Shown: piece after piece, positions 25,237 to 32,185 of the stretch
How positions within the stretch are numbered: the stretch's first letter is position 1
Layout of the letters: each line of letters starts with the position of its first letter
The notes under the pieces: generated by a model
What the model was told of the DNA's origin: nothing
Database searches by the model: none
The model's input: the letters and a program-made list of their open reading frames with translations, nothing else
DNA from: Hydrogenophaga sp.
Lineage (GTDB): Bacteria > Pseudomonadota > Gammaproteobacteria > Burkholderiales > Burkholderiaceae_C
Reading direction: 5' to 3'
Assembly: GCA_020723845.1 (NCBI GenBank)
Contig: DYIC01000011.1
Location: 1-45,721 of the forward strand
Length of the DNA stretch: 45,721 nt
Translations under genes and position numbers: made by a program

Positions 25237-25566
25237 TCACCAGTTTTTGGGCAGCTTGATTGAGTTTGCGCGGGTTGCCGGCTGATCCGTGACAGCCTTG
25301 AACAGCGGGTCGCGCGGCAAAATCTCTTCCCGAATGCGTGTGAACTCGTCCAGTCGTACCATCAAATCGTGTTTGATGTCCATCAACGCCGCTGCCGTCG
25401 TGAAGTCGAAACCACGCCGCGTGCCGCCGCGGGTATCGAGGAAGAGGTGGTTGACGTAATCCAGCATGGCCTGGGGATCATCGCGCAGCTGCAACAGCCG
25501 CTCGCGAATGTGCGGATAGGCGATCTGCTCGAGTCGGCCCTCGAGAACATCGGGCAGGCGGTCCAT
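25237..25566 (-). CDS. Uncharacterised 109-residue protein
   Basis: I do not recognise this family. The predicted protein is soluble, without signal peptide or membrane segment, and mostly helical, with charged amphipathic stretches such as IRERLLQLRDDPQAMLDYVNHLF and ALMDIKHDLMVRLDEFTRIREEIL. It ends 9 nt from the convergent lysR stop. Codon use looks like that of real genes nearby and the residue composition is balanced, not the Arg/Ala/Pro-rich kind produced by frames antisense to GC-rich genes. No ligand-binding motif is visible and its neighbours give no functional hint. Confidence 0.65.
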   Translation of the reverse strand: MDRLPDVLEGRLEQIAYPHIRERLLQLRDDPQAMLDYVNHLFLDTRGGTRRGFDFTTAAALMDIKHDLMVRLDEFTRIREEILPRDPLFKAVTDQPATRANSIKLPKNW

Positions 25567-25650: not shown

Positions 25651-26406
25651 TCAGCCGCGCCAGAAAAACACCGCGCTCATGGCCAGTCCCGTGGCGATGA
25701 CGATCCCGCGCACCGCCGCCGCCGGCAAGCGTTGCGCCCAGCGCGCACCCGCGTAGCCGCCCATCGTCGCGGCGGCCATCATCAGCAGCGCCGGTGTCCA
25801 GGCGACGGCCCCGGCCACGGCAAACGTGGCCACTGACAGCAGCGACAGCACCAGCGAGTTCAGGTTTTTGAGCGCGTTGGCGGTGTGGATACGCGACTCG
25901 CCCGTGACGGTGTAGAGTGCCATCAACAAAATACCCAGGCCGCCGTTGAAGTAGCCGCCGTAGATGGCCACGGCCAGCAGACCTCCGTGGCGGGCGGCGG
26001 CGGCGCTCGTGCCCGGGCGGTGTGTAGCCAGCCAGCGCACGGCATACGGTCCGGCCAGGAAGACCGCGGTGGCAAACAAGAGCAGCCAGGGCACCAGCGC
26101 GCGAAAGGCGCTGGCGGGCGTCACCAGCAGCAGCGCTGCGCCCAGCACGCCACCGGCGGCGGCGATGCCGGCTTCGACGAGCAGCCGCCGGCGCGGCAGC
26201 GCCGCCAGCTCGCGACGAAACCCCAGGGTGCTGCCGAGATATCCTGGACTGACCGCCACCGCGCTCGTGGCGTTGGCTACGATGGGCGGAATGCCCGTGA
26301 AGACGAGCGCGGGAAACGTCAGAAAACTGCCGCCACCGGCGATGGCATTGAGCACGCCCGCCGCAAAGGCCGCCACGGCCAGGAGTGGCGCGTCGGCGGG
26401 CGTCAT
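25651..26406 (-). CDS. TauE/SafE-family membrane permease
   Basis: A permease of 251 residues with about eight membrane segments, in the TauE/SafE family, whose studied members export sulfite or sulfonates. The N-terminal half has the signature AGGGSFLTFPALVFTGIPP followed by ANATSAVAVSPGYLGS. The second repeat contains GGYFNGGLGILLMALY. It is the last gene of a five-gene operon and starts 1 nt after the stop of the SLAC1-family gene, so translation is coupled. A sulfur-anion role is inferred from family and partners. Confidence 0.85.
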   Translation of the reverse strand: MTPADAPLLAVAAFAAGVLNAIAGGGSFLTFPALVFTGIPPIVANATSAVAVSPGYLGSTLGFRRELAALPRRRLLVEAGIAAAGGVLGAALLLVTPASAFRALVPWLLLFATAVFLAGPYAVRWLATHRPGTSAAAARHGGLLAVAIYGGYFNGGLGILLMALYTVTGESRIHTANALKNLNSLVLSLLSVATFAVAGAVAWTPALLMMAAATMGGYAGARWAQRLPAAAVRGIVIATGLAMSAVFFWRG

Positions 26407-26407
26407 G

Positions 26408-27424
26408 TCAGTTCGATGCCGGCACGATGGGGGCTACCGGCTCGGGCGCGAGCAGCGTGCCCTCGCGCAGGCCCTTGACGGTGGCCAGCAGCAGCGCCGC
26501 GATCACCACCGACGTCAGCGCCAGCAGTACCAGCGCCACCATGCGCAGTGGGGGCAGCGCCAGCGCCTCGGCCAGCCGCACGGTCAGGGTGGTGAAGGCC
26601 GCCAGCGGAAACGAAACGCTCCAAAACGGCACGCCGAACGGCTGCGCAAAGAAGCGCCGTGCCTGCGTGCCGACCCACAGCAAGGTGAATAGACCCACAC
26701 CCCACACGGCCACGGCCACCAGTGGCGCTGCGCCATAGCGCAGCAGGCACAACCCCACCACGGACACCGGTGCCAGCGTGATGAACCAGGTGGGATGCAG
26801 CCGCGGAGGGATGGGCCCATGCGCCAAGCGCCGCGCCACCAGCAGCGCAAACACCACCGGCCAGAAAAAGACGCCAATACCGAGGTGGATGGCCGACCAC
26901 ACGTCGTGGCCGAACCCGACCCCGGCCAGCGGTGCGACCACATTGCCCACCACGGGGATGTAGAGCACCGGGGTGATGCCGTTCCAGAGCGATTGCGCAT
27001 CTGGCGCGTGGGCCACCGTGGGCGCGAGCCAGCGCCCCAGTACCCATACCGTGACGGCCAACTGGCCCAGCGCGCCCAGCCACCACAGCCCGTGCGCACC
27101 GTCCCGCCACAGCTCCATGGCCTGCATCCACGTCGCCAGCAGCAGCGCCGACACCGGCAGCGCTGCCACAAAGGTGTGGCGCACCGGGTGACGCAGGTCT
27201 TCCGCCAATGCTGGCGGGTGGCGTTGTGCCCGCACGGCCGAGCCCACCAGCAGCACCCCGAATACCGCGGCCGCCAACACGCCCAACACGAGCGACGCGC
27301 CCTGCGCCCACTCACCCAGCCAGTGACCGGCGGCGTGCCAGGCCAAGGCCAGACCCGTCAGTCCCATGACGATCGAAAACCAACCCGGGTGCAGATATTT
27401 CAGCGGTGTGGCAGAAGGTGTCAT
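26408..27424 (-). CDS. SLAC1/TDT-family anion channel or exporter
   Basis: An integral membrane protein of 338 residues with about ten hydrophobic segments, of the tellurite-resistance/dicarboxylate (TDT, SLAC1) family that includes bacterial TehA, plant SLAC1 and the yeast sulfite pump Ssu1. Family features are the N-terminal LHPGWFSIVMGLTGLALAW and the PTWFITLAPVSVVGL and PFWSVSFPLAAFT segments. It lies between the DUF2892 gene (30 nt away) and the TauE/SafE gene (1 nt). The anion cannot be named from sequence alone; sulfite is the inference suggested by the neighbours. Confidence 0.85.
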   Translation of the reverse strand: MTPSATPLKYLHPGWFSIVMGLTGLALAWHAAGHWLGEWAQGASLVLGVLAAAVFGVLLVGSAVRAQRHPPALAEDLRHPVRHTFVAALPVSALLLATWMQAMELWRDGAHGLWWLGALGQLAVTVWVLGRWLAPTVAHAPDAQSLWNGITPVLYIPVVGNVVAPLAGVGFGHDVWSAIHLGIGVFFWPVVFALLVARRLAHGPIPPRLHPTWFITLAPVSVVGLCLLRYGAAPLVAVAVWGVGLFTLLWVGTQARRFFAQPFGVPFWSVSFPLAAFTTLTVRLAEALALPPLRMVALVLLALTSVVIAALLLATVKGLREGTLLAPEPVAPIVPASN

Positions 27425-27454
27425 GGGGCACCGTGTGGCAAGAGGGCGAACGAA

Positions 27455-27682
27455 TCAGCAAGCTTTGCAGGGCAGGGCGCTCTCAGGCACGCCCAGCTTT
27501 TTGAGGATGATGGCCAGCGGGCAGAAATTGGTAAACCCAAATTGGAACAGATTCAGCCCCACGAACGCGGTGAAGGCCAAAAACCACTCGCTGACGAACA
27601 GCGGGCTGGAGGGCGCCCCCAGCGCCACCGACACGAATACGAACAGACCAGCGATGATGCGGATATAGCGTTCGACCGTCAT
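27455..27682 (-). CDS. DUF2892 small membrane protein (YgaP C-terminal-like)
   Basis: A protein of 75 residues with two hydrophobic helices, matching the DUF2892 pattern (short Arg-containing N-terminus, a small-residue helix, then GFTNFCPLAIILKKLG). The same domain forms the membrane part of the rhodanese YgaP. Cysteines occur in FCPL and in the C-terminal CKAC. The ATG at 27682 has AAGGAG upstream on the minus strand; an in-frame ATG further upstream lacks one. It sits 54 nt after the RND permease. Confidence 0.8.
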   Translation of the reverse strand: MTVERYIRIIAGLFVFVSVALGAPSSPLFVSEWFLAFTAFVGLNLFQFGFTNFCPLAIILKKLGVPESALPCKAC

Positions 27683-27736
27683 GATGAAAGACTCCTTGAC
27701 AGGGTTGGACAAGAAACAGCAGTGGGGTGGCAGCAA

Positions 27737-30700
27737 TCAGGCGTTGCCCGCCGCCTGCGCCGCGTAGCGGCGACGGTAGACAGCGTAATACAACACCGGA
27801 ATCACCACCAGCGTCAGCAAGGTGGAGACCGCGATGCCAAAGATCAAGGACACGGCCAGGCCGTTGAAGATGGGGTCGTCCAGGATGAAGAACGCCCCCA
27901 TCATCGCGGCCAACGCGGTGAGTGCGATCGGCTGCGCGCGCACCGCCGCCGACTGCACCACCGCCTGCGCAAACGGCACGCCCTTGGCGGTCTCCAGCTC
28001 GATGAAATCGACCAACAGGATCGAGTTGCGCACGATGATGCCCGCCAGCGCGATCATGCCGATCATGCTGGTGGCGGTGAACTGTGCCCCCAACAGTGCG
28101 TGCCCGGGCATGATGCCGATCAGGGTCAACGGGATCGGAGCCATGATGATGAGCGGGGTCAGGTAGCTCTTGAACTGGGCCACGACGAGCAGGTAGATCA
28201 GCACCAACCCGACGGCGTAGGCCGCCCCCATGTCCCGGAACGTTTCGTAGGTGATCTGCCACTCGCCGTCCCACTTGATGGCGTATTGCCGCCACGGGTC
28301 GGTGGGCTGGCGAATCCAGTATTCACCTAGCGCGCCCGCGTCGGGCAGGGCGGCCTGCGCCAGTTGCGGGCGAATGCCGAACAGCCCGTACAGCGGCGAG
28401 TCGGTGCGGCCTGCCATGTCGCCCAGCACGTACACCACCGGCAGCAGGTCCTTGCTGAAGCGCGGCGTGTCGATGACGCCGTGTTCGACGCGCACCAGCT
28501 CGGACAGGGGCACCATGCGCCCGTTGGCGGCGCGCAACGGCAGCGCCAGCACCGCATCCAAGCCCACCTGCGCCTCGCGCGGCAGCTGCAGCCGCACCGG
28601 CACGGCGAACTTGGCGTAGCCGTCGTGCAAATAGGCGGCGTCCATGCCCGACAGGGCGGTGTAGACGGTTTGCGCGATCACCTGCGCCGGGATGCCCAGC
28701 GCCTCCGCGCGCGCGCGCTCGATGCGCAGGAAGGTGCGCGGCGCGTCTTCTTTGAGCGTGGTGTCGATGCCAACAATGTCCGGGGTGGCGGCAAACGCCT
28801 GGGCCACGCGGCGGGCCAGCTCGGCGCGACCGGCCTCATCCGGGCCGTAGACCTCGGCCACGATGGGCGCAAGCACCGGCGGGCCCGGGGGCACTTCCAC
28901 CACCTTGATGCGGCCACCGTGCGCCTGCGCAATCGCTTCCAGGCCCGGGCGCAGGCGTTGCGCGATGGCGTGGCTCTTCTCATGCCGGTGGCGCGCATCG
29001 ACCAGGTTGACCTGCAGGTCGCCTTGCTCCGGGTCGGCGCGCAGGTAGTACTGCCGCACCAGCCCGTTGAAGGTGATCGGGCTGGCCGTGCCCGCGTAGC
29101 CTTGCACGTGCGTGACTTCGGGCTGCTGGGCCAGAAAGGCCGTCATGTCCTGCAAGGCGGCCGCGGTGTCTTCCAGCGCGCTGCCGGCGGGCATTTCCAG
29201 CACGACCTGGAATTCGCTCTTGTTGTCGAACGGCAGCATCTTCAGGATCACCGCCTGCACCACCACCAGCCCGACCGACAGCACCAAGCCGGCGAGCACC
29301 CCGGCCGCGAGCAGCCAGCGGTGGCGCGCGCTGTGCAAAAACGGTGTCAGCGTGCGGGTAAAGAACGCTTGCAGCCCGCGCGTCAGGCGCGAGGGGGCGT
29401 GCGCGGCGTGCCCGTGCGAGCGCGTCAGGTGCAGCGCCAGCCAGGGCGTGACCGTGAAGGCGATCGCCAGCGAAATCGCCATACCCATGCTGGCGTTGAT
29501 GGGGATGGGGCTCATGTACGGCCCCATCAGGCCGGTGACGAACGCCATTGGCAGCAAGGCGGCGATCACGGTCAGCGTGGCCAGGATGGTGGGTCCACCG
29601 ACCTCGTCGACCGCGCGCGGGATGATCTCGGTCAGCGGGGCGTCGGGCGTGAGTTGCCGGTGGCGGTGGATGTTTTCCACCACCACGATGGCGTCGTCCA
29701 CCAGAATGCCGATGGAGAAGATGAGGGCAAAGAGCGAAACACGGTTGAGCGTGAAGCCCCACGCCCAAGAGGCAAACAGCGTGGCGGTCAATGTCAGAAT
29801 GACCGCGGCGCCCACGATGACGGCCTCGCGCCGCCCCAAGGCCACGCCCACCAACACGATGACGCTGGCGGTGGCAAAGATGAGTTTTTGGATCAGCTTG
29901 TTGGCTTTGTCGGCCGCGGTGGCGCCGTAGTCGCGGCTGATGGTGACCTCGACGCCCTCGGGGATGAGGGTGTTGCGCAAGCGCTCGATCTGGGCGCGTG
30001 CCGCTTGCGCCACATCCACCGCGTTTTGGCCCGGTTTTTTGGTCACGATGACGGTGACGGCCGGGTACGACTGCCCGACCTGAGCCCCGGCGGGCAGCGC
30101 GTCACCCGGCCCTGGCGTGTGCCACACGTAGCGGCGGGGCAGCTGGGCCCCTTCCTCCACGCGGGCGACCTCGCGCAGATAGACCGGCTTGCCGTCGTGC
30201 ACGCCCACCACGATGTCGCCCACCTCCTGCGCCGAGCGCAGGAATTCGCCCGTCTCCACCGTCAACAAGCCGGGTTGCCCCGGTTGGCCCGCTTGCGGGT
30301 TGGCCACCGTGCCCGCCGGCAGTGCCTGGTTGGCCGCCTGGATGGCCTGGTACAGTGCCTGCACTGGCACGCCGCGTGCGCGCAACTGGGCAGGGTCGAG
30401 CCAGACATGTACCGCCCGGCCCGGGCCACCGATGGTTTGTACTTCGCGCGTGCCCGGCACGCGCTTGAGTTCGGTTTCGATGGCATGTGCCACGCGTTCG
30501 ATATCGAGCGCGCTGCGCCCGTCCGGGCTCCAGAGTGTGGCCGCCAGCACGGGCACGTCATCGATGCCTTTGGGCTTGACGATGGGTGGCAGCACCCCGA
30601 GCCCTTGCGGCAGCCAGTCCTGGTTGGCGTTGAGCACGTCGTACAAGCGCACCAGCGCCTCGGTGCGCGGCACGCCCACCTGAAACTGCACGGTCAGCAC

Positions 30701-31006
30701 CGCCACGCCCGGGCGCGAGACGCTGTACGTGTGCTCGATACCGTGGATCTGCGACAGCACATGCTCCGCGGGCTGCGCCACCATCTTTTCCACGTCCGCG
30801 GCCGACGCGCCGGGGAAGGGGATGATGACGTTGGCCATGGTCACGTTGATCTGCGGCTCTTCCTCGCGCGGGGTGACCAGCACGGCAAACAGCCCCAGCA
30901 GCAGCGCCACCAGCGCCAGCAGCGGGGTGATGGCATTGGCCTGGAACAGGCGCGCCACCGCGCCGGAGAAGCCCAGGCGTTCGACGGAATCCGATTTGGG
31001 TGTCAT
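27737..31006 (-). CDS. RND-family efflux pump permease subunit
   Basis: A proton-driven inner-membrane RND transporter of 1089 residues, with the usual two halves of six membrane segments and large periplasmic loops. The N-terminal segment is followed by REEEPQI, and the fourth membrane segment holds GILVDDAIVVVENIHRH with the adjacent aspartates needed for proton relay. A C-terminal ALAGIIVRNSILLVDF repeat is present. It follows the adaptor gene by 21 nt. No outer-membrane channel gene is in the operon, so a TolC-type partner must be encoded elsewhere. The substrate is unknown; it does not show an obvious heavy-metal methionine cluster. Confidence 0.92.
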   Translation of the reverse strand: MTPKSDSVERLGFSGAVARLFQANAITPLLALVALLLGLFAVLVTPREEEPQINVTMANVIIPFPGASAADVEKMVAQPAEHVLSQIHGIEHTYSVSRPGVAVLTVQFQVGVPRTEALVRLYDVLNANQDWLPQGLGVLPPIVKPKGIDDVPVLAATLWSPDGRSALDIERVAHAIETELKRVPGTREVQTIGGPGRAVHVWLDPAQLRARGVPVQALYQAIQAANQALPAGTVANPQAGQPGQPGLLTVETGEFLRSAQEVGDIVVGVHDGKPVYLREVARVEEGAQLPRRYVWHTPGPGDALPAGAQVGQSYPAVTVIVTKKPGQNAVDVAQAARAQIERLRNTLIPEGVEVTISRDYGATAADKANKLIQKLIFATASVIVLVGVALGRREAVIVGAAVILTLTATLFASWAWGFTLNRVSLFALIFSIGILVDDAIVVVENIHRHRQLTPDAPLTEIIPRAVDEVGGPTILATLTVIAALLPMAFVTGLMGPYMSPIPINASMGMAISLAIAFTVTPWLALHLTRSHGHAAHAPSRLTRGLQAFFTRTLTPFLHSARHRWLLAAGVLAGLVLSVGLVVVQAVILKMLPFDNKSEFQVVLEMPAGSALEDTAAALQDMTAFLAQQPEVTHVQGYAGTASPITFNGLVRQYYLRADPEQGDLQVNLVDARHRHEKSHAIAQRLRPGLEAIAQAHGGRIKVVEVPPGPPVLAPIVAEVYGPDEAGRAELARRVAQAFAATPDIVGIDTTLKEDAPRTFLRIERARAEALGIPAQVIAQTVYTALSGMDAAYLHDGYAKFAVPVRLQLPREAQVGLDAVLALPLRAANGRMVPLSELVRVEHGVIDTPRFSKDLLPVVYVLGDMAGRTDSPLYGLFGIRPQLAQAALPDAGALGEYWIRQPTDPWRQYAIKWDGEWQITYETFRDMGAAYAVGLVLIYLLVVAQFKSYLTPLIIMAPIPLTLIGIMPGHALLGAQFTATSMIGMIALAGIIVRNSILLVDFIELETAKGVPFAQAVVQSAAVRAQPIALTALAAMMGAFFILDDPIFNGLAVSLIFGIAVSTLLTLVVIPVLYYAVYRRRYAAQAAGNA

Positions 31007-31027
31007 GGTACGGCGCGTCCCTCGAGG

Positions 31028-32134
31028 TCAGCGTTGGGCCGGTTGGGCGCCCGCCAGACCGGCGCGCACGGGGTCCAGGGCCACGCGCTCGCCGGGCTGC
31101 ACGCCGGACAGCACTTCGATGTCGTCGCCGTGATCGGTGCCCAGGCGTACCGCCCGCAGCACGAAGCCGCTGGCCGCCCCGGCGGGAGAGGCGACGTAGA
31201 CGGCGGTCAACTCGCCGCGGCGCAGCACCGCGCGCGCCGGTACCACCAGGCGCTCCTCGGCGCTGGCCACGAAGCGTACCTTGACCGCCTGCCCGGGCAC
31301 GTGCGAGGCCGTGTCCGCCGGGGCCAAATCCAGTCGCCACTCCACGGTTTGCGCCACCGGGTCGGCCGCGGGCAGCCGAGTCTGCGCCTGCGGCGCGACC
31401 CAGCGTCCATCCGGCAAGCGCACCTGCACCTGGCGCGCCGCCCCGGCAAGCGCTGCGCGCGAGGCCGGGACGTGTACGACCGCGCGCAGCGGCTGCGGCG
31501 CGTGCAGCGTCAGGATGGGTCGGCCTGGTGCCGCCAGGTCGCCTACTTCGGCATGGGTGGCCAACACATACCCGTCGTACGGTGCCGTCAGGCGCGTAAA
31601 CCCTTGCGCCAGCGCCGACTGGGACTGCGCCGCGCGCGCTTGCGCGAGCGCCGCCCGCGCGGCGTCGGCCTGTGCCTGGGCGGTGTCCAGTGCTGCCTGT
31701 GACACGAACCCCTGCGCCCGCAGCTCGCGCGTGCGCTTCAGGTGGGCGTCGGCGTTGCGCGCCTCGGCCTCGGCCTGCTGTACCGCGGCCTGTGCGCGCT
31801 GCACGCCCGCACTGGTTTCGCGGTCGTCGATCACGGCCAGCACCTGCCCGGCGCGCACCCGGTCACCGGCCTTGACAGGCAGCTGGACGATGCGGCCGGC
31901 GGCCTGCGCCGCCAGCGTGCTTTGCTGCACCGCCTGCAGCGTGCCGTCCAGCACCAACCCCTGCGCCACGGGCTGACGGCTGACGGTGTGCACCTCGACC
32001 CGCGGGCCCTCGGCGGCCCAGGCGGCAGGCAGTGCGGCGGACAGTGCCACGGCGGCAGTGGCCAGCCAGTGGCGGCGCCCCAATGGTCGCGGGGCGGTGG
32101 TGTCGGCACGGAGGGGCGGACGCGGCATGGACAT
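31028..32134 (-). CDS. RND efflux periplasmic adaptor subunit
   Basis: A membrane-fusion protein of 368 residues linking the RND permease to an outer-membrane channel. It has a cleavable signal peptide (RRHWLATAAVALSAALPAAWA), two lipoyl half-motifs (AAGRIVQLPVKAGDRVRAGQVLAVID near 68-93 and YDGYVLATHAEVGDLAAPG further on) and an Ala/Gln-rich coiled-coil hairpin between them. ATG 32134 is favoured over 32149 and 32128 because GAGGAG lies 7 nt upstream. It is the first gene of the operon and is read from the promoter at about 32157-32185. Confidence 0.9.
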   Translation of the reverse strand: MSMPRPPLRADTTAPRPLGRRHWLATAAVALSAALPAAWAAEGPRVEVHTVSRQPVAQGLVLDGTLQAVQQSTLAAQAAGRIVQLPVKAGDRVRAGQVLAVIDDRETSAGVQRAQAAVQQAEAEARNADAHLKRTRELRAQGFVSQAALDTAQAQADAARAALAQARAAQSQSALAQGFTRLTAPYDGYVLATHAEVGDLAAPGRPILTLHAPQPLRAVVHVPASRAALAGAARQVQVRLPDGRWVAPQAQTRLPAADPVAQTVEWRLDLAPADTASHVPGQAVKVRFVASAEERLVVPARAVLRRGELTAVYVASPAGAASGFVLRAVRLGTDHGDDIEVLSGVQPGERVALDPVRAGLAGAQPAQR

Positions 32135-32156: not shown

Positions 32157-32185
32157 AGTATACCAACATACCCCAGGGAGTACAA
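32157..32185 (-). promoter_or_regulatory. Sigma70-like promoter of the RND-DUF2892-SLAC1-TauE operon
   Basis: On the minus strand, TTGTAC (32185-32180) is separated by exactly 17 nt from TATACT (32162-32157). Both boxes match sigma70 consensus at four or five of six positions. The region lies in the 58-nt gap between the alr stop and the adaptor start, so the operon need not depend on alr transcription. Confidence 0.6.
32168..32183. promoter_or_regulatory. CsoR/CstR-like imperfect palindrome in the promoter spacer
   Basis: The sequence ATACCCCAGGGAGTAC is an imperfect dyad (left arm TACCCC, right arm GGGAGTA). It sits in the spacer and overlaps the -35 box of the promoter above. Its GC-rich core flanked by ATAC/GTAC resembles the published operator style of the CsoR family (copper-sensing CsoR, persulfide-sensing CstR). 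Binding would block RNA polymerase, fitting repression relieved by metal or persulfide. No CsoR-family gene is present in the window. Confidence 0.35.

Follow-up and report, generated by a model that had tools for sequence, protein, structure and literature searches.

The pump operon and its proteins

The window analysed here is the whole 45,721-nucleotide stretch of Hydrogenophaga sp. contig DYIC01000011.1 (our C32; G+C 67.5%), from a 2.27-Mb genome. On its minus strand a five-gene operon (25651–32134) encodes an RND periplasmic adaptor (membrane fusion protein, MFP; 31028–32134), an RND permease (27737–31006), a 75-residue DUF2892/YgaP-like membrane protein (27455–27682), a SLAC1/TDT-family anion channel or exporter (26408–27424) and a TauE/SafE-family permease (25651–26406), in this order and with intergenic gaps of 21, 54, 30 and 1 bp. 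All five proteins score above their Pfam cut-offs, including the permease (ACR_tran, 502.9 bits against a cut-off of 28), the DUF2892 protein (47.8 against 25.3 for PF11127, listed as YgaP-like_TM, which we take to be the former DUF2892), the SLAC1 protein (PF03595, 161 against 27.9) and the TauE protein (PF01925, 125 against 32.6), and the adaptor is also above the NCBIfam RND_mfp cut-off (TIGR01730, 195.2 against 94.9). These scores and coordinates bear out the five genes, their order and their short gaps as described in an earlier note on this DNA. Adaptor and permease are encoded together, as in tripartite RND efflux pumps, and no outer-membrane channel gene lies within 25651–32134, again as that note had it. 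The operon carries no channel, and at 21 of 80 other loci (sample described below) a TolC-type gene is found no more than 4.5 kb away from the permease, so a channel supplied in trans is plausible.

The permease belongs to a subfamily with no equivalog model of its own, and both it and the SLAC1 protein fall under every NCBIfam equivalog cut-off. The permease scores 449.9 bits with RND_permease_2, 301 with HAE1 and 240.5 with the heavy-metal HME (CusA-CzcA) model TIGR00914, all below cut-off, which for the last is 701. It retains the Asp-Asp proton-relay pair of transmembrane helix 4 (VDDAIVVVEN), a pattern that matches 88/91 relatives with 3 unmatched, and carries an Arg (IIVRNSILLVDF) at the place of what we take to be the relay Lys of AcrB; by pattern, this Arg is present in 88/91 copies of the subfamily. 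A comparison of this residue, in transmembrane helix 10, with control permeases was dropped, the pattern having failed on 18 of 20 of them. At one related locus (L033:4359-7640) the permease is split across two adjacent frames, which points to an error in the sequence record or to disruption of the gene. Avoidance of cysteine was considered as a trait of the pump (no Cys in 57/79 permease relatives, nor in 66/72 adaptors after residue 40) and rejected; we draw nothing from it because the genus has further RND pumps that are likewise poor in Cys, in many cases with 0 to 3 residues, although over-long reading frames inflated the figures for several of them.

The DUF2892 protein has a single Cys, which is invariant in all 71 pump-linked relatives in a profile alignment. 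The SLAC1 gene is the genome's only SLAC1 match. Its product shares the fold family of Haemophilus influenzae TehA and plant SLAC1 and retains in alignment the SFPLA stretch of TehA, which presumably contains the gate Phe, but it scores well under the equivalog cut-off of the TehA tellurite/dicarboxylate exporter model NF008032 (138 bits against 342). The TauE protein has no PDB match at E values up to 1.

Conservation and sulfur-gene linkage of the pump core

The arrangement of the operon is above chance: the pump is found in all 11 genomes of our comparison set for the genus, and the gene order is common to the genus. Of the 8 genus stretches that reach beyond SLAC1, 7 have TauE as the very next gene; in L108 it lies ~1 kb later. 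This direct adjacency is mainly a feature of the genus. Among 20 close non-genus loci (19 top-ranking and one partial, from 139 non-genus genomes with a match) DUF2892 is present at 20, SLAC1 at 13, CsoR at 12, TauE at 9 and SQR at 8 (one weak), and TauE adjoins SLAC1, with CsoR between them, only in L223 and L224. At L229, L230 and L237 the genes form one cluster in the order pump-SQR-DUF2892-SLAC1-CsoR, with OsmC before SLAC1 in two of them; for L229, Pfam confirms SLAC1, CsoR, a flavoprotein, DUF2892 and OsmC. L225 and L237 are probably the same genomes as L005 and L006 of the larger sample below, so the two sets overlap. Across the window's family the pump subfamily occurs in 144/299 genomes and 69/126 genera, 8 of the 144 matching only at 40–42% identity.

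The larger sample comprises the best 80 of 593 confirmed permease loci from named genomes, scanned with profiles built from those loci and set against 20 control loci of other RND pumps, all from the window genus, where the window operon itself scores 0/10 for SQR, ETHE1, rhodanese, CsoR and BigR. Near the permease, DUF2892 is found at 63/80 pump loci and 0/20 control loci, SQR at 26 and 0, rhodanese at 17 and 0, the persulfide dioxygenase ETHE1 at 11 and 1, CsoR at 10 and 0 and, by profile, TauE at 12 and 0 and TolC at 25 and 3. A BigR-like ArsR regulator, whose representative has BigR as its best model yet stays under the cut-off (103 against 155 bits), is present at 37/80 against 2/20. Any of BigR, CsoR, SQR, ETHE1 or rhodanese is found at 50/80 pump loci compared with 3/20 controls. 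Beyond the genus, the conserved core is adaptor-permease-DUF2892.

The host genus also fits a sulfur-linked role. The earlier note had made its relevance depend on a host that oxidises reduced sulfur, and soxB is above cut-off in 9/11 genus genomes; of the other two, one has a soxB fragment and the second, which is 73% complete, has no soxB. In the wider family, soxB is found in 88/136 genomes with the pump and 73/163 without, uncorrected for kinship and with the 8 genomes at 40–42% permease identity counted as lacking it; by pump clade, also uncorrected for kinship, it is found in 43/51 genomes at ≥71% identity and 45/85 at 61–67%. A lack of conserved linkage elsewhere, on which the note would have given up a sulfur-export role, did not appear: linkage is conserved in the genus and in relatives. 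The linkage to sulfur genes and CsoR regulators that it proposed to look for was seen in part. Genes for SQR, persulfide dioxygenase, rhodanese, BigR and CsoR lie near the pump in relatives, and a CsoR-type operator is present at the promoter, but no sulfur enzyme adjoins the operon in the window genus.

After TauE, on the same strand, lies a possible sixth gene of 109 residues (25237–25566), with no Pfam or NCBIfam match. Relatives of this open reading frame follow TauE in 7/7 sufficiently long genus stretches (L103–L108 and L110, the last weak at 44 bits).

The promoter and candidate CsoR regulators

Between alr and the adaptor gene lies a sigma-70-like promoter (minus strand, 32157–32185) with a −35 element TTGTAC (32180–32185), a 17-nt spacer and a −10 element TATACT (32157–32162). 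The putative CsoR/CstR-type operator TACTCCCTGGGGTA (minus strand, 32169–32182) overlaps the −35 element and the spacer. CsoR-family sites are typically pseudo-palindromic, with a run of at least 4 G or C, and often lie over the −10 or −35 elements (PMC10318464). We scanned 83 promoter regions, from 74 of the 80 pump loci (the remaining 6 could not be scanned) and 9 genus loci. The motif TACCCCNNGGGGTA occurs with at most one mismatch in 17/83 regions, against 0.1% of shuffled regions. It is present in all 9 genus promoters scanned, where the operators occupy an identical promoter layout, and in L002, L003, L004, L005, L009, L015, L018 and L030.

The window's genome encodes two CsoR-family proteins, CsoR-1 and CsoR-2, both on contig C30 and not on the window contig. 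Each has two Cys spaced 24 residues apart, and His is absent from the second site. Copper-sensing CsoR proteins carry a Cys-His-Cys triad; in alignments, neither CsoR-1 nor CsoR-2 has the His or Cys expected at its second and third places. Chain 7mq3, taken here as a CstR although the structure file names copper-sensing csoR, places the second Cys five residues later than both. CsoR-1 is solitary, and its upstream site TACCCTAGGGGGTA lies between it and a divergently encoded DUF302 protein (L084:15275-15901, minus strand). This site is kept at up to two mismatches in 9/9 genus loci with enough upstream DNA; it is also conserved outside the genus, in L194, L195 and L196. The DUF302 motif itself was seen beside CsoR-1 in 7/10 genus loci and in L194–L196. 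CsoR-2 and a persulfide dioxygenase-rhodanese fusion lie together (L084:5286-6797, minus strand), and CsoR-2 has a different upstream site, with the conserved form TACCATNNGGAGTA; by motif scan only, the metallo-beta-lactamase motif of the fusion is near CsoR-2 in 10/10 genus loci. Orthologues of CsoR-1 and of CsoR-2 are each present in 10/11 genus genomes, the exception being the 73%-complete genome.

Outside the genus, the search for CsoR-1 covered 26 of the 80 pump genomes. Of the 8 genomes that have the operator, 6 encode an orthologue with 57–83% identity, compared with 0 of 17 scanned genomes that lack the operator. Counting 0/18 gives a Fisher p of 1.2e-4, the eighteenth genome being L068, whose promoter was not in hand and which has no CsoR match.

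Proposed role, known systems and alternatives

Given the conserved CsoR-type operator, the co-occurring two-Cys CsoR and the proximity of the pump-DUF2892 pair to sulfur genes in relatives, the operon is probably a reactive-sulfur-inducible export module. A CsoR with reduced cysteines would hold the promoter shut, and persulfide or polysulfide from sulfide or thiosulfate oxidation would modify these cysteines and release the repressor. TauE and SLAC1 would then let out sulfite and/or thiosulfate made by the cytoplasmic persulfide dioxygenase-rhodanese, while the RND pump, joined to a TolC-type channel whose gene lies elsewhere, would collect sulfane sulfur (polysulfide, organic persulfide or S0) in the periplasm or at the inner membrane's outer face and expel it. 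DUF2892 may present membrane-bound sulfane sulfur via its invariant Cys. More tentatively, and with rather less confidence than we place in inducible export as such, the RND subfamily and the one-Cys DUF2892 could form a dedicated exporter of sulfane sulfur out of the envelope that has repeatedly come under different types of sulfur-linked repressor, of the ArsR/BigR type in many lineages and of the CsoR type here; SLAC1 and TauE would be additions that let sulfite/thiosulfate out of the cytoplasm. We found no description of an RND pump dedicated to sulfane-sulfur export in the literature, of which mainly the open-access part was covered.

Several known systems share parts of this arrangement. 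The Azospira suillum PS operon Dsui_3440-3443, in the order MFP-SQR-RND-unknown, is expressed at a high level under H2S and influences fitness in that condition; its authors proposed metal-sulfide export, and another DUF2892 gene in the paper is ~10-fold up (PMC5358917). Like the window operon it combines an RND permease and adaptor with a gene of unknown function, but it also includes SQR, and SLAC1, TauE and CsoR are not described there; the likeness to the window pump is one of gene order and description. The order MFP-SQR-RND-DUF2892, resembling that of Azospira, occurs in L023, L059 and L072. In CstR/FisR/BigR-type operons, such as Staphylococcus aureus cst and that of Acinetobacter baumannii, TauE is a proposed sulfite/thiosulfate effluxer beside SQR and persulfide dioxygenase and under reactive-sulfur control, the cst repressor being of the CsoR family; an RND pump, DUF2892 and SLAC1 are not named there in the text at hand (PMC7315123). 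The window operon has the CsoR-type operator of a cst-type operon, yet genes for SQR and persulfide dioxygenase are missing from it and from the operon at the 10 genus loci; in the window's genome the persulfide dioxygenase-rhodanese is elsewhere, beside the second CsoR, and SQR is within the cluster at some related loci, L229 and L237 among them. Among the genes linked to ArsR-type sulfane-sulfur regulators of the sHdrR, SoxR and SqrR kind are those for RND efflux pumps and for TauE exporters; control there is of the ArsR type rather than the CsoR type suggested here, and the text does not use the term DUF2892 (PMC12423496). TTHA1953 of Thermus thermophilus, a CsoR-family two-Cys repressor of sox genes and closest to CstR according to its authors, has an operator (TACNNTACNNNNGTANNGTA) without a G/C run and its Cys at C39 and C68, 29 apart compared with 24 in CsoR-1 and CsoR-2 (PMC10318464). 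Work on Rhodoferax sediminis (PMC7074706) and on selenite in Pseudomonas putida (PMC10128140) was also considered, and the parts available do not describe the window operon. The linkage of RND pumps to sulfur is thus already known (PMC12423496, PMC5358917), and what is new, as far as these texts go, is a form that has a CsoR-type operator together with DUF2892 and SLAC1. The earlier note knew of no described system with this combination, and our search, mainly of open-access literature, likewise found no CsoR-controlled RND-DUF2892-SLAC1-TauE system.

A number of observations weigh against an inducible sulfur-export module. The Cys spacing of CsoR-1 and CsoR-2 (24 residues) is not that of CstR (29), and CsoR-1 matches no NCBIfam equivalog. 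L018 and L030 carry the operator, but no CsoR-1 orthologue was found in either: the CsoRs that L018 does have are of other kinds, one of them with a single Cys, and L030 has only a 41% relative. In L223 and L224 the CsoR encoded between SLAC1 and TauE retains only the first Cys, so it may sense by another chemistry or may no longer sense at all. By our reading, two positions separate the window operator from the CsoR-1 site and two from the CsoR-2 site, and being about equally close to both it could be bound by either protein. Genome-wide, the window's genome has 5 operator sites at up to one mismatch compared with 6 for a reversed control; because this count is not enriched, the operator argument rests on conservation at the operon promoter and at CsoR-1. 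None of the five sulfur families is found at 30/80 pump loci, some on short contigs, and SQR, ETHE1, rhodanese, CsoR and BigR are beside the operon at 0/10 genus loci. An SQR of the operon type was not found in the window's genome, where the query gave only matches of 24–26% identity; the better of these fits the type III SQR model below its cut-off (159.8 against 525 bits). When the Azospira operon was deleted, H2S was oxidised as fast as before (PMC5358917); this argues against a part in oxidation itself but is compatible with one in tolerance or export.

The low share of SLAC1, at 7/80 pump loci (0/20 controls), counts in the same direction and would also fit a narrower account, in which only adaptor, permease and DUF2892 deal with sulfide or persulfide stress, and SLAC1 and TauE, added in particular clades, carry anions unrelated to it. 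At 9/80 pump loci TauE is no more than 4.5 kb away from the permease, and although SLAC1 is at 13/20 close non-genus loci, TauE adjoins it at just two. We nevertheless consider such passengers unlikely, as SLAC1 sits inside the SQR-DUF2892-CsoR clusters of L229, L230 and L237 and the window genes nearly touch behind one common promoter.

Efflux of a metal or metalloid, combining CsoR-type copper-export control with a TehA-like tellurite channel, would seem more unlikely still. CsoR-family operators are classically linked to copper (PMC10318464), the SLAC1 relatives bear the tellurite-resistance name TehA, and CopA occurs at 6/80 pump loci; but CopA is also found at 1/20 control loci, neither CsoR has the Cys-His-Cys copper triad, the permease scores lower with the heavy-metal model than with RND_permease_2 or HAE1, and the SLAC1 protein falls far short of the TehA cut-off. 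Least probable, in our view, is a general drug or organic-solute pump in a neighbourhood that is sulfur-rich by chance. RND pumps are often polyspecific, and the solved structures nearest to this pump are those of multidrug pumps, yet the permease is under the cut-off of every multidrug model and the 20 other RND loci of the genus are devoid of DUF2892, SQR, rhodanese and CsoR alike.

A reactive-sulfur-inducible export module would give a testable function to a pump subfamily that is widespread in the window's family, with an operator and a candidate regulator named, and would tie SLAC1/TDT channels and DUF2892 to sulfur oxidation. Bacterial exit routes for sulfane sulfur and sulfite are poorly known. 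If the pump does export sulfane sulfur, this would bear on the origin of extracellular sulfur and on how sulfur stress may alter efflux.

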